DNA of 64,000 nt from an uncultured Ignavibacteria bacterium (GTDB lineage: Bacteria; Bacteroidota; Ignavibacteria; Tepidaquicellales; OLB5). This document shows, one piece after another, positions 5,421 to 56,075 of the stretch. The notes under the pieces are model-generated. The model did not search any database. It was given only the letters and a program-made list of their open reading frames with translations, and had not been told where the DNA came from. Made by a program: the position numbers and the translations under genes. Every line of letters begins with the position of its first letter. Positions within the stretch are counted from its first letter, which is position 1. The stretch lies in NCBI GenBank assembly GCA_937873695.1, contig CALMYL010000007.1:62001-126000 (forward strand), given 5' to 3'.

Positions 5421-6028
5421 ACATGATTTTGTTACCTGCCTAATATTTTTTTGAATTGCGGCTAAAGCCGGGTTTATTTTTGTTTACAGGCCACGACCTA
5501 AAGGTCGTGGCAACTCAACTAACAGGATTTAAAGTTAGAGAATATGATTAGGCGATCCTTAGAAAATTCAGATAAATATTGTTTCGTAAAGAAATGTTTT
5601 TTTGAGTAGCCCCGCTCTTTAGAGCGGGGGATTAATCTTGTCCCAACTTGAGGGGCTTTAGCCCCAGTTTCATCTTGTTCACTCCGGCGGAGTGTACCGG
5701 AAAATCATTAGCTTGAAGACAATGCAATTTTAAATTAATCAAATGTGAATAATGATCAAAGCAGTAATATTTGATATGGATGGTGTAATAGTTGACTCTG
5801 AGCCGATAATGGATAAACATATCGCTCCTACCCCGAAAGGGAGGGAGTTAGGTGTTTTTAATTGCTGGTGATCCTGGTGGTATTGGCAGCTCCAACAATA
5901 GGTTTTTTTAAAAATGACCCCCTCTGTATCTCCCCCTGACGGGGGGAGACGAAGTGGGGGTATTTTCTTGTCATCACAAAAAAAACAAATTCACGTTATA
6001 GTTTTTTGTTAAACAAAAATATGATTTT
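5421..6028. repeat. Intergenic region made of several dispersed palindromic repeats
   Basis: This 608-base gap has no complete gene. It contains the palindrome ccacgacctaaaggtcgtgg near 5494, the hairpin CCCCGCTCTTTAGAGCGGGG near 5609, GGGGCTTTAGCCCC near 5650, an actccggcggagt palindrome near 5681, the HAD-gene remnant at 5752-5871, and a ccccctgacggggg hairpin near 5934. The first two recur at 7350-7510, and the second again near 25640 and 26610. Confidence 0.8.
5752..5871 (+). pseudogene. Remnant of a HAD-superfamily hydrolase gene, cut off by repeat sequence
   Basis: An ATG at 5752 opens 23 codons that read as the N-terminus of a beta-phosphoglucomutase-like HAD hydrolase: MIKAVIFDMDGVIVDSEP and five further residues. 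The nucleophile motif DxDG is intact at residues 8-11. From 5821 the frame runs into intergenic repeat sequence (cgctcctaccccgaaagg...) and stops at 5869-5871. The remaining roughly 190 residues expected for the family are absent downstream, where the caspase-like gene begins. It is therefore a gene fragment and probably not functional. Confidence 0.75.
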
Positions 6029-10262: not shown

Positions 10263-10598
10263 AGTTAAAAAGTCTTTGTCCGCTCTTCTTAAAAGAAAAT
10301 CAGCTCCCCTCCTTTCTTAAGGAGGGGGAAGACCAGCCGAAGGCTGGGCTGGGGTGGTAGCTTAAAACATCTTCCCGCAGAGTCCCCAGTGGGAGACTCT
10401 GCGGAGACAACTAAGCTGGTGGAGTGATAAATTGGTTAAATGGCTTGTTGGTTAAATGGTTAGTTGGTTAAATGCTAAGTTGGTTAATTGAAGTGGTGCC
10501 GGGTATGTACCCTGCGTGCGGAAGGTGAACATCTAAAGACTTTCAGCTTTAAGCCACTTCAGTAAATAATATTGTTTTGATTAACGGTATAAATACAT
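10263..10598. repeat. Repeat-rich intergenic region
   Basis: This 336-base gap contains no gene. It has a family D composite repeat in inverted orientation (10301-10360: agctcccctcc ... ggggtggt), a cgcagagtc...gactctgcg hairpin near 10377-10406 that recurs near 23250 and 24136, and a short tandem run of gttggttaaatgg units at about 10431-10490 with four imperfect copies. Confidence 0.75.
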
Positions 10599-23920: not shown

Positions 23921-24325
23921 AAAACTTTTTCAGCTCCCCTCCTTTCGAGAAATCACGGAGTGATTTCGAAGTCTGCACCTGCCGGCGGCATGGCCGCTTT
24001 AGCGGGATAAAGGAGGGGAGCAAAAAATTAAAATTTGTGGTGTCGGGTATTTACCCGACATGCGTCAGGTGACTGTCTGGGCTGATGTCACGACAGTCAG
24101 GAATACCTGACGCCACAATTAATATTGAATCATCTCCGCAGAGTCCCTTAACAGGAGACTCTGCGGAAACGGAAAAACTTTTTCAACTCCCCTCCTACCT
24201 TAGGAGGGGAGCTAAAGCAATATTTTGAAATTCTCTTTAAAACTTTGTACATATTTTTTTCGAAAAAAATCACGATTCGGGGCTTTTATCTATATGCAGT
24301 TATAATTAATTTAAACAAAATTCAT
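23921..24325. repeat. Repeat mosaic between DUF3592 gene and the paralogue cluster
   Basis: In this 405-base gap, positions 23933-24021 are a family D element in inverted orientation whose two halves (agctcccctcctttc and aaaggaggggagc) are separated by other palindromes (gaaatcacggagtgatttc, and cggcggcatggccgctttagcg). Positions 24038-24116 hold hairpins with gtcgggtatttacccgac and gacagtcaggaatacctg parts. A cgcagagtc...gactctgcg hairpin follows at 24137-24164, and a short cccctcctaccttaggagggg element at 24188-24210. These are nested repeats, not genes. Confidence 0.75.
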
Positions 24326-44594: not shown

Positions 44595-44653
44595 CAGACC
44601 ACCCCGCCACGAGCTTCGCTCGTGTCACCCCTCCTCATCTGAGGAGGGGAGCT
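44595..44653. repeat. Family D composite repeat (rsmG-mnmG gap)
   Basis: The element reads agaccaccccg, a variable hairpin (cacgagcttcgctcgtg), cacccctcc, a second hairpin and ggaggggagctt. The same framework with different hairpins occurs at 46713-46770, 49848-49930, 50691-50747 and 51594-51654, and inverted near 10301, 23933 and 24187. Confidence 0.8.
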
Positions 44654-46712: not shown

Positions 46713-46770
46713 ACCACCCCGTCCTACGCTTTGCGCAGTCCACCCCTCCTTATAAAAGGAGGGGAGCTTT
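46713..46770. repeat. Family D composite repeat
   Basis: This copy of the accaccccgtc...cacccctcc...ggaggggagcttt element has a tacgctttgcgca central hairpin. It lies between mnmG and the parS-like site at 46810. Confidence 0.75.
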
Positions 46771-48656: not shown

Positions 48657-48968
48657 AGTATTAACCTCACCCCCAGCCCCTCTCCTTGGAGGAGAGGGGA
48701 GAAAAGATTAACAAAGATAGGGATTAATGATATGTGAAAAAATGAATATCAAAAGCATAATGTCTAATACCAAAGCTCAAACGTCAAAAATTATATTTAT
48801 GTGTGACCCCGATGGGGTCAATATGCAAACTAATTAATTTAGCTACCTTCCTCTGCCAAAGCATAGTAAGGCGGGTAAATGTTTGACCGCTCTGCGGTCA
48901 TATAGAAGTACAAATAATTTCGGTTTATGGGATTAAAGAAAATATTATATTACAAAAAACCTTTTGTA
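48657..48968. other. Intergenic region with short palindromes upstream of mnmE
   Basis: This 312-base gap holds a family D-like element adjoining mnmE (acctcacccccagcccctctcc...ggagaggggag at 48664-48702), a gtgaccccgatggggtca palindrome near 48803-48820, and a tgaccgctctgcggtca palindrome near 48884-48900. These last two recur at 51661-51830 and 63200-63360. Confidence 0.7.
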
Positions 48969-50690: not shown

Positions 50691-50747
50691 GACCACCCCG
50701 TCACACCTTCGGTGTGCCACCCCTCCTTAGAAAAGGAGGGGAGCTTT
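50691..50747. repeat. Family D composite repeat
   Basis: This copy has a cacaccttcggtgtg hairpin and ccctccttagaaaaggaggg as the second one. It lies just upstream of the lipoprotein gene at 50771; the reading frame of that gene runs through the repeat, but the signal peptide begins after it. Confidence 0.75.
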
Positions 50748-51445: not shown

Positions 51446-51840
51446 CAATAAAAAATATTGTCTTTTCCATCCCAAGTTTCCGCTTGGGATGGAAATTGGA
51501 AACGAAGCTTTGCTTCGGACAGGTATCAGGAAGAAGCCAGATAAGAATCTGCGTTCCCAAGCGGAAGCCTGGGAACGAGGGAAGTAAACCATCAGACCAC
51601 CCCGTCTCAGGCTTCGCCTGAGCCACCCCTCCTCATCTGAGGAGGGGAGCTTTTAGAAATTGACTCCGCTAGGAGTCAAACATTTATAGAAGAAGGATTA
51701 TTTTTTAGCTTCCCGACTCCAGCGGAGTCGCACGTAACATAAAATGTGTTACCCCTATGGGGTCAACCTGTTTTATAAATATTTTTGGCTACAAATGTTT
51801 GGCCGCTCTGCGGTCATGGTTTTTGTAGCTTAAATAATTA
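51446..51840. repeat. Palindromic repeat cluster before the candidate origin
   Basis: This stretch contains tcccaagtttccgcttggga, then gcgttcccaag...cttgggaacg, a family D copy at 51594-51654, and the gactccgctaggagtc, gactccagcggagtc, ccccatatgggg-like and gaccgctctgcggtc palindromes between 51661 and 51830. No gene. These are the same elements as at 48803-48900 and 63200-63360. Confidence 0.75.
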
Positions 51841-53867: not shown

Positions 53868-54278
53868 AAATGTTGATACATCATAAATTTATACAAAGCT
53901 ATCCACATTTCGCGGATAGCTTTTGTTTTTATAATATACGTGTTGAATGATGTTGATTATCTGACATGTTTTGAACAAAGCTGTTAACAGGAATTTGTGT
54001 CATATGTTTTATTTTCATTCTATATTTAAAGATAAACCGTTAAATTTATACTTATCAACAGTACTACTACTACATCTTTTTTATTTATATAATAAAGAAT
54101 AAGTATAGTAATGCGGCCAAAAGGCGAAATAAATAAATAGTGAAATAGTGTGTTGTCATTCTGAGAGAGCAGAGCGATCGAAGAATCCACTTTTAACTTC
54201 ATAATGGATTTTAAATTAATTCAGGATGACAATAAAAATATAAAATTTAAATTATTCTGCACGAATTATTCAGGATTA
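53868..54278. other. dnaA-recN intergenic region
   Basis: This 411-base gap begins with the dnaA terminator (53895-53930) and is AT-rich. It has a weak DnaA-box-like TTATCAACA at 54052-54060 and a gtcattctgagagagcagagcgatcgaagaatcc dispersed-repeat sequence in the part near 54156-54189 (given here only in outline). The recN reading frame opens at 54204 but the true start is later. Confidence 0.55.
53895..53930 (+). terminator. dnaA rho-independent terminator
   Basis: The stem aaagctatcc (53895-53904) pairs with ggatagcttt (53914-53923), followed by a T-rich run. It lies 28 bases after the dnaA stop. Confidence 0.8.
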
Positions 54279-56075
54279 ATGCTCGAAAAACTCACAATAA
54301 AAAATTACCTGCTGTTAAAGAACATTGAAATTGATCTTTCAAATGGATTTAACATAATTACCGGTGAAACCGGCGCGGGGAAGTCGATACTTATCAACGC
54401 GCTTAATTTATTATTGGGTGGCAGGGCTGATTACTCAATTATCAGCAAAAATAAGGATAAGATGATAATTGAAGGGATTGTGAGCGTTTCAAAGGAAAAT
54501 GCAAAAGCAATTGGCGGGATTTTAAAAGAACATGAAATTGAATCAATGATAACCTCACCCCCGTCCCCTAATGTTGATCCCGCTAAGCAGAAAAGCGGGA
54601 CGGCAAAAAACGCCGAAGGAGAGGGGGGAGAATCCTCTAAAATAAATAAAGATGAAGGCTTAGTTCTTATTATCCGGCGTGAATTGTATACCAAGGCTTA
54701 CAGCCGGTGTTTTATCAACGATACACCCGTTGGTACCAATGAACTGAAGGAACTCGGTGAGGTGATAATTGATATTCACTCGCAGAACGAACACCAGTCA
54801 TTGCTTAAAAAAGAAGTACATATTGAGCTGGTTGATTCATACTTAATAAAAAAAGAAGGTAAAAAGTTTGAAGATAAGCTGAATAGTTATAAACAGGGTT
54901 ATGAACAACTGTTAATAAAACAAAGTGAGTTTGACGAAATTAACAAAAAGAAAAGTGAGCTTGATAACAAACGCAGCTTTATAGATTTTCAGCTGAAGGA
55001 AATTCATGAAACCAATCCGCTGGCAGGTGAGGATGATGAACTGGAAAATGAACTTAAGACCGGTGAAAATATTGAAGGCATCAGAGAGTCGCTAACGCTT
55101 GCTTACGCGAATTTGTATGATGATACAGGCAGCGTGCTTGAGCGCATTAAAATTGTTGAAAAAGAGCTCGGTAAAATAGGGGAGTATAACACGGATATTC
55201 AGAAAATTCTGGGTGATGTAAGCGAATCAACAACCGCCCTGCGTGAAGCAAGCCGGTTAATTGAATCACTGCTTGAAAACCTGAATTTTGATCCGGCAAG
55301 AGTTGAAGAAATACGCGAGCGTTTATATAAACTGCAGTTCTTAAAGAAAAAATACGGCGGCTCAATTGATGAAGTCATTAAACTTAAGGAAACGCTTGAA
55401 AAAGATCTGAGCCTGGTGGATAATTTTGATGAAACGATAAAGAAACTTAAAGCAGAAATTGATGAATTAGTAAAGGACCTGTTCCAAAAGGCGGGCGAGC
55501 TTTCAAAAACGCGTAAGGATAAATCAAAACAGCTTGAAGTTGAAATAGTAAAAATATTAAAAGAAGTTGGGTTTGAAAATGCGGAGTTTAAGACGAATAT
55601 TGAAAATACTGAAGCAAAGAAACTTAACAGCAACGGATATGATGATGTTGAGTTTATGGTTAAGATAAACAAGGGTGATGAATTTTCTTCCCTGCGGAAG
55701 ACCGCTTCAGGCGGGGAAGTATCCAGAATTATGCTTGCGGTGAAATCAGTGTTAGCCGGTGCTGATAAAGTTGATATACTGGTGTTTGATGAAATAGATA
55801 CCGGCATAAGCGGCAGGATTGCGCAGAAGGTCGGCAGGGTTATGAAGGGACTATCAGGTTTTCGGCAGGTTATTGCTATTACCCATTTGGCGCAGATTGC
55901 TGCGCTTGCAGATGAACACCTGCTGGTAGAAAAAGAGACGGAAGGGAATTCGACAATTACCCGAATACGCCCATTGGATAAAAACGAAAAAGTTATTGAA
56001 GTAGCAAAGTTACTCAGCGGCGAGAAGGTAACAGATGCAAGTATTAAGAGCGCGAAGGAATTGATGTCAGTGTAA
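54279..56075 (+). CDS. recN: DNA repair protein RecN with an in-frame repeat insertion
   Basis: The 598-residue protein has the N-terminal LTIKNYLLLKNIEIDL and Walker A TGETGAGKSIL, a long central coiled coil (about 195-430), and C-terminal ASGGEVSRIMLAVKS, VDILVFDEIDTGISG and the switch TH. RecN is an SMC-like ATPase for double-strand-break repair. Residues 92-121 (nucleotides 54552-54641) are not family sequence: they are encoded by a palindromic repeat, the same type as at 48664-48702, which itself contains a nested cccgct...agcggg hairpin. The insertion keeps the frame and explains the excess length. ATG 54279 fits the family N-terminus; 54204 would add 25 unrelated residues. Confidence 0.93.
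   Translation: MLEKLTIKNYLLLKNIEIDLSNGFNIITGETGAGKSILINALNLLLGGRADYSIISKNKDKMIIEGIVSVSKENAKAIGGILKEHEIESMITSPPSPNVDPAKQKSGTAKNAEGEGGESSKINKDEGLVLIIRRELYTKAYSRCFINDTPVGTNELKELGEVIIDIHSQNEHQSLLKKEVHIELVDSYLIKKEGKKFEDKLNSYKQGYEQLLIKQSEFDEINKKKSELDNKRSFIDFQLKEIHETNPLAGEDDELENELKTGENIEGIRESLTLAYANLYDDTGSVLERIKIVEKELGKIGEYNTDIQKILGDVSESTTALREASRLIESLLENLNFDPARVEEIRERLYKLQFLKKKYGGSIDEVIKLKETLEKDLSLVDNFDETIKKLKAEIDELVKDLFQKAGELSKTRKDKSKQLEVEIVKILKEVGFENAEFKTNIENTEAKKLNSNGYDDVEFMVKINKGDEFSSLRKTASGGEVSRIMLAVKSVLAGADKVDILVFDEIDTGISGRIAQKVGRVMKGLSGFRQVIAITHLAQIAALADEHLLVEKETEGNSTITRIRPLDKNEKVIEVAKLLSGEKVTDASIKSAKELMSV

Follow-up and report, generated by a model that had tools for sequence, protein, structure and literature searches.

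A nested palindromic repeat in frame within recN of an uncultured Ignavibacteria bacterium and its possible link to DUF559 nucleases

How did a palindromic repeat come to lie in frame within recN, and what could have moved it there? The locus lies in the window, as we call the whole 64-kb stretch of DNA analysed here, which is part of a 3.78-Mb genome (G000; 30 contigs, 99.86% complete). Close relatives of this genome are uncultured Ignavibacteria (UBA2360, WB-IL-15, BIN7, MAG_28 and others), and all genomes compared are assemblies, many of them MAGs. The answer that we consider reasonably probable is that a REP/REPIN-like palindrome, E1, inserted into recN, that a second element, E2, then nested inside it, and that DUF559 proteins provided the mobility in trans. 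The gene, the parts of its insert and the matching intergenic element are the following.

54279–56075, + strand: recN, 598 aa, start MLEKLTIKNYLLLKN (set from the alignment); TIGR00634 score 463.6 bits against a cut-off of 407.85
54552–54569, + strand: left half of E1, ACCTCACCCCCGTCCCCT, composed of the foot ACCTCACCCCC and the arm GTCCCCT; an intact E1 occupies the same site in G002
54570–54617, + strand: E2 inside the E1 loop, AATGTTGATCCCGC..CGCCGAA; missing from the same site in G002
54579–54599 (CCCGCTAAGCAGAAAAGCGGG) and 54602–54614 (GGCAAAAAACGCC), + strand: the hairpins of E2, which encodes NVDPAKQKSGTAKNAE
54618–54629, + strand: right half of E1, arm GGAGAGGGGGGA
54630–54665, + strand: non-palindromic tail of about 12 codons, GAATCCTCTAAAATAAATAAAGATGAAGGCTTAGTT (ESSKINKDEGLV); present in G002, missing at the empty site
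48664–48699, + strand: solo intergenic E1, ACCTCACCCCCAGCCCCTCTCCTTGGAGGAGAGGGG, upstream of an oppositely oriented ORF for an MnmE-like GTPase

The recN ORF has an additional in-frame ATG upstream, at 54204. Residues 91–131 of RecN, approximately, are an in-frame insertion with a net gain of 36 residues (41 against 5 in the closest orthologue), and five native codons were replaced. No clear target-site duplication was seen by eye. The original prediction had described an in-frame palindromic repeat of 30 codons (92–121) matching the intergenic element at 48664, with a second palindrome nested in it, a length divisible by three and no stop. The repeat and its match are borne out by comparison of 54552–54629 with 48664–48699, and the insert is indeed a stop-free multiple of three with recN intact on both flanks. 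It is longer than described, with the five replaced codons and the tail included, and the nested palindrome, although present, is not part of the 48664 element but belongs to a separately dispersed family with 11 copies. The insert is probably translated, and the predicted RecN stretches across it read ESMITSPPSPNVDPAK and TAKNAEGEGGESSK.

The intermediates are found among 20 genomes whose RecN sequences were aligned. Site 1, the position of the insert in G000, is empty in the sister species G005, whose RecN is 95% identical (EHEIESIGNNLIIRREL); G002 carries E1 alone (EHEIESMITSPPSPLLKGEGGESSKINKDEGLVLIIRREL) and G000 carries E1 together with E2 (EHEIESMITSPPSPNVDPAKQKSGTAKNAEGEGGESSKINKDEGLVLIIRREL). 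As the outer palindrome stands alone at the same site in G002, E2 was added inside the E1 loop, and these three alleles establish the succession from an empty site through E1 to E1 with E2. The segment is not a conserved part of RecN in genomes lacking the repeat: G005, G009, G001, G011 and others are without it, and its length tracks the repeat. The orthologue gap envisaged in the original prediction is real in the empty G005 allele, but not perfectly clean, as five native codons were replaced.

A second site lies in the loop before NGYDDVEF (residues 441–454, approximately), where at least six relatives carry E1, sometimes with E2, mostly in the frame TSPPxPLLKGEG. G005 has E1 there (TSPPTPLLKGEGS), G002 and G011 have E1 with E2, and G001, G006, G007 and G012 have related palindromes. 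E2-type inserts occur at both recN sites of G010, in another reading frame (GRQKAP). Site 1 of G000 shares the E1/E2 junction CCCCTAATGTTGATCCCGC with site 2 of G002, and site 2 of G011 has almost the same junction, which suggests that the E1/E2 unit was copied between sites of recN.

Comparison of insert-bearing with insert-free recN pairs gave dN/dS values of 0.05–0.07, and the ATPase motifs are conserved in the alignment. The gene is under purifying selection, with function retained as far as sequence can tell. In the AlphaFold (AF2) model of RecN (mean pLDDT 82.9), values below 50 occur only at residues 92–126, which correspond to the insert and are placed in the head domain between helix 72–84 and strand 129–137. 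According to this model, the insert is a disordered loop of 36 residues, and its position outside the conserved ATPase core is presumably the reason why it is tolerated. Site 2 is modelled as a loop between strands 436–443 and 455–462, and across the order this loop varies naturally in length. Such variation might be taken to account for site 1 as well, as might a pseudogene or an assembly error. At site 1 these explanations are refuted and retain next to no probability: the insert is palindromic repeat DNA, the independently assembled G002 carries an insert at the same site, the frame is intact and dN/dS is low.

E1 is about 40 bp long and consists of a CCTCACC foot and a CCCCTCTCC..GGAGAGGGG hairpin; the family to which it belongs is REP/REPIN-like, with the C-rich arm first. 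Copy numbers were determined by pattern searches, and genomic context was taken from about 300 fetched loci. At up to one mismatch, E1 occurs 21 times in G000, 39 times in G002, 33 times in G008, 25 times in G010, 12 times in G009 and four times in the next genus; within the class, 33 of 119 genomes contain a match. The reversed control pattern gave 0 copies in each genome counted. Since the 90-bp segment has 10 further matches in the genome at E <= 1e-3 (best 2.7e-14) and the E1 core 21 copies against none of the control, the recN element is not a product of chance. E2, searched with up to three mismatches, is present in 11 copies in G000, 12 in G002, 6 in G009, 3 in G010 and 0 in G013, and several copies sit in an E1 loop. 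The scan also detected 13 inverted E1 dimers, most of them about 97–104 bp long with the feet pointing outward; the tail at 54630–54665 is perhaps a remnant of the spacer of such a dimer. A search of the whole window against Rfam at the gathering threshold gave no match.

Most inspected copies of E1 are intergenic. The original prediction had proposed a search for the element in ORFs, and it is found in frame also in queG, rlmD, uvrC, gltX, a gene for an MFS protein and the N-terminus of a homoserine dehydrogenase (the last two named by eye). In the opposite orientation it occurs in an AMP-ligase and two T9SS-type proteins, again named by eye. The frame TSPPxPLLKGEG is used at 8 of 12 types of in-gene site (p about 0.003 if four frames are open), which is suggestive only of a preference. 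The uvrC gene has an insert-free allele in the outgroup family and is nearly insert-free in G000 and G009. In two secreted-looking proteins of G009 (L177, L178), a reversed E1 precedes a C-terminal sorting-type domain. Two loci (L088 on contig C20 of G000 and L174 of G009) combine E1 with other palindromes in an N-terminal extension of a homoserine dehydrogenase-like protein; this extension may be untranslated if the true start lies downstream.

Could such repeats spread with no dedicated enzyme, by replication slippage, hairpin template switching and gene conversion between copies? The queG gene of G002 (L161, C13:552000–555300), in which E1 and a spacer form in-frame tandem units of about 81 bp, fits slippage. 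The junction common to different recN sites looks as if copied within the gene, and the want of a clear target duplication at site 1 points in the same direction. Dispersal to dozens of unrelated loci is left unexplained by these processes, as are palindromes on both sides of DUF559 genes (see below), and we hold this explanation to be unlikely.

Alternatively, E1 might be a classical REP/REPIN moved by a RAYT (Y1_Tnp, TnpA-REP) transposase. Its size, copy number, hairpin with foot, inverted dimers and mostly intergenic location all fit, and Y1_Tnp genes are present in 8–10 copies per genome. Yet among 27 Y1_Tnp loci from three genomes, not one had an E1 or E2 closer than 1.5 kb, flanking hairpins of the same polarity were seen at 0 of 26 Y1_Tnp loci, and E1 has the foot CCTCACC/GGTGAGG and lacks the GTAG or CGTC tag described in PMC3733652. 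This explanation appears distinctly improbable.

The window contains further hairpins.

50720–50741, unstranded: hairpin CCCCTCC..GGAGGGG of a second subfamily, with a ACCCCGTC foot
10306–10327, 24187–24211, 44628–44649, 46743–46764 and 51626–51647: more hairpins of this second subfamily, C-rich arm first
5929–5949: hairpin of another type, C-rich arm first

These seven strong hairpins all have the C-rich arm first, with none of the opposite polarity in the window; most belong to the CCCCTCCT..AGGAGGGG subfamily. The subfamily of the hairpin at 50720–50741 also flanks DUF559 genes in relatives.

By a criterion chosen after several DUF559 flanks had been seen (a C-rich-arm-first hairpin within 300 bp on both sides), 10 of 16 DUF559 genes from four members of the genus are flanked, against 0 of 26 Y1_Tnp genes and 0 of 43 recN- and uvrC-type loci. 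The difference between DUF559 and Y1_Tnp corresponds to a Fisher p of about 5e-6, to be read with the common ancestry of loci from one genus, which are not all independent. No hairpins of opposite polarity were found around the DUF559, Y1_Tnp or recN/uvrC-type loci of the genus. DUF559 is present in 78 of 148 genomes of the phylum, and of 30 DUF559 loci in the phylum, 15 had hairpins on both sides; the figure for reversed polarity was 2 of 30. Palindromes with the C-rich arm first are thus physically associated with DUF559. Several free-standing units have the symmetrical order hairpin, mini-palindrome, foot, DUF559, foot, mini-palindrome, hairpin; the ends of one unit (L293) read GGGGTGTGT..ACACACCCC. 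As mini-palindromes stand between hairpin and foot, nested palindromes recur at DUF559 units. Outside Bacteroidota, on a plasmid of Synechocystis sp. B12 (CP101712.1, 34694–36405; L328), a pair of hairpins of this type encloses a DUF559 gene that directly follows a DUF1156 ORF. Of three cyanobacterial plasmid records, two lacked hairpins of this kind near DUF559.

DUF559 also resides inside host proteins. UvrC of G005, G008 and G010 (L250, L254, L279; about 870–910 aa) contains E1 repeats, a DUF559 domain of about 110 aa and again E1 repeats, all in one frame (Pfam E 1.6e-36 in G005 and 1.1e-38 in G008). Elsewhere in Bacteroidota, DUF559 lies in frame inside LeuS at two positions (leuS L298, L300, L322), inside MetH with the same linker in two genera (metH L311, L316), and inside HsdR (L301, L303), HsdM (L308), a type ISP protein (L296) and methylases. 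These in-frame copies adjoin palindrome-encoded peptides such as PSPTGRGAGGEG. Pfam scans of the LeuS, MetH and restriction-modification hosts detected no Hint/intein family. E1-type ends with the CCTCACC foot were seen around DUF559 in UvrC only, the other DUF559 genes having palindromes of sister subfamilies. The 3′ flank of recN has a DUF559 unit in G006 and G010, palindromes alone in G009 and nothing comparable in G000. The window's contig (C7) yielded no DUF559 gene, and the recN element itself carries no nuclease.

What kind of protein is DUF559? An alignment of 22 copies, those embedded in UvrC included, has invariant residues E19, D48, E59, D61 and H65. The DUF559 profile matches 3hrl and I-Bth0305I (3r3p; hmmsearch E 1.4e-5). 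A structural model (pLDDT 90) matches the folds of both in Foldseek searches, with E 2.6e-4 and TM 0.67–0.76 for 3r3p, and that of Vsr more weakly. DUF559 is a relative of the homing endonuclease I-Bth0305I. PMC12907096 describes VsrA, a DUF559 protein of Caulobacter, as a predicted repair endonuclease similar to Vsr, and hence not every DUF559 protein need be mobile.

The mechanism that we favour is a palindrome family driven by DUF559, whose mobilisation we infer from this association. E1 inserted in frame into RecN at a surface loop, and E2 later entered the hairpin loop of E1 itself; the open TSPPxPLLKGEG frame would let such insertions survive inside genes. DUF559 nucleases, encoded between two palindromes either as genes or as in-frame domains, would supply mobility in trans, cleavage and subsequent recombinational repair copying the palindrome-bounded unit. 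Solo E1 would then be a non-autonomous or remnant form.

The same association would arise if palindromes only serve as targets for DUF559 units, or capture such units, and themselves spread by another route. Insertion of IS elements into REPs is known (PMC1525189), and E1 may predate DUF559 in UvrC, for the site that holds E1, DUF559 and E1 in G005 holds E1 repeats in G002. On the other hand, free-standing DUF559 genes have palindromes with inward feet as near-terminal inverted ends, and these are unit-specific; they resemble the ends of an element more closely than targets already in place. We judge mere targeting or capture to be rather improbable.

Returning to mobilisation by DUF559, we propose tentatively, and with more doubt than confidence, that E1-type palindromes and DUF559 constitute an undescribed class of mobile unit, in which a Vsr/I-Bth0305I-like nuclease lies between inverted palindromic ends and one reading frame can stay open. 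If so, DUF559 units and their non-autonomous palindromes invade uvrC, leuS, metH, hsdR and recN as domains or loops, without splicing. They would represent a nuclease-based counterpart of REPIN/RAYT across Bacteroidota, perhaps beyond it, as at the Synechocystis plasmid locus. At the recN locus, a single gene has been invaded in frame by stepwise nesting, the intermediates being preserved in living relatives, and the origin of new protein segments from short palindromes becomes a testable question. Through the link to DUF559, palindromic repeats lacking a transposase partner would gain a candidate enzyme, and a domain of unknown function that is very common would gain a role. The link would also show how nuclease domains can enter essential proteins without splicing.

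Among known systems, the Rickettsia palindromic elements (RPE) are palindromic repeats that interrupt conserved-protein genes in frame and are translated (PMC3733652). The likeness to RPE noted in the original prediction holds for the mode of action, compared by description: the recN E1 is a palindromic repeat in frame in a conserved-protein gene, with empty-site orthologues. Unlike RPE, E1 belongs to another phylum, combines a hairpin with a CCTCACC foot, is mostly intergenic, forms inverted dimers and hosts a nested second element. Its architecture, with 12–39 copies, mostly intergenic, and inverted dimers, is closer to the intragenic REP/REPIN-type repeats (PMC3733652). Like the intragenic GTAG/CGTC REPs, E1 is small, solo or dimeric, mostly intergenic and sometimes in frame. 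Many REPs inside genes reside in DNA repair genes, among them uvrA, uvrB and recBCD, and some in genes for tRNA synthetases and RNA modification (PMC3733652), the same classes as the E1 hosts recN, uvrC, gltX, queG and rlmD. The shared classes may reflect a tolerance for insertions in surface loops, recruitment by the repair process, or both. Neither recN, uvrC nor Ignavibacteria is mentioned in the main text of PMC3733652. As E1 has no GTAG/CGTC tag and no RAYT linkage, we do not file it under these REP families.

REPIN/RAYT systems and the REPtron (PMC8266576, PMC8049555) share with our elements inverted dimers, outward feet and an enzyme gene bracketed by palindromes. In our elements, the bracketed gene encodes DUF559, of the PD-(D/E)XK, Vsr/EDxHD type, and not an HUH Y1 transposase. 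I-Bth0305I (PDB 3r3p; Vsr-like/EDxHD) is related to DUF559 in sequence and fold, and DUF559 likewise lies inside conserved genes; in contrast to I-Bth0305I, no intron or intein was seen, and DUF559 apparently stays in the host protein, flanked by linkers that the palindromes encode. In the open-access literature we found no prior report of DUF559 together with palindromic repeats or mobile elements. Palindromes within genes were already known from RPE and intragenic REPs, whereas an in-frame DUF559 flanked by E1, and the association of such palindromes with DUF559, appear to be new.
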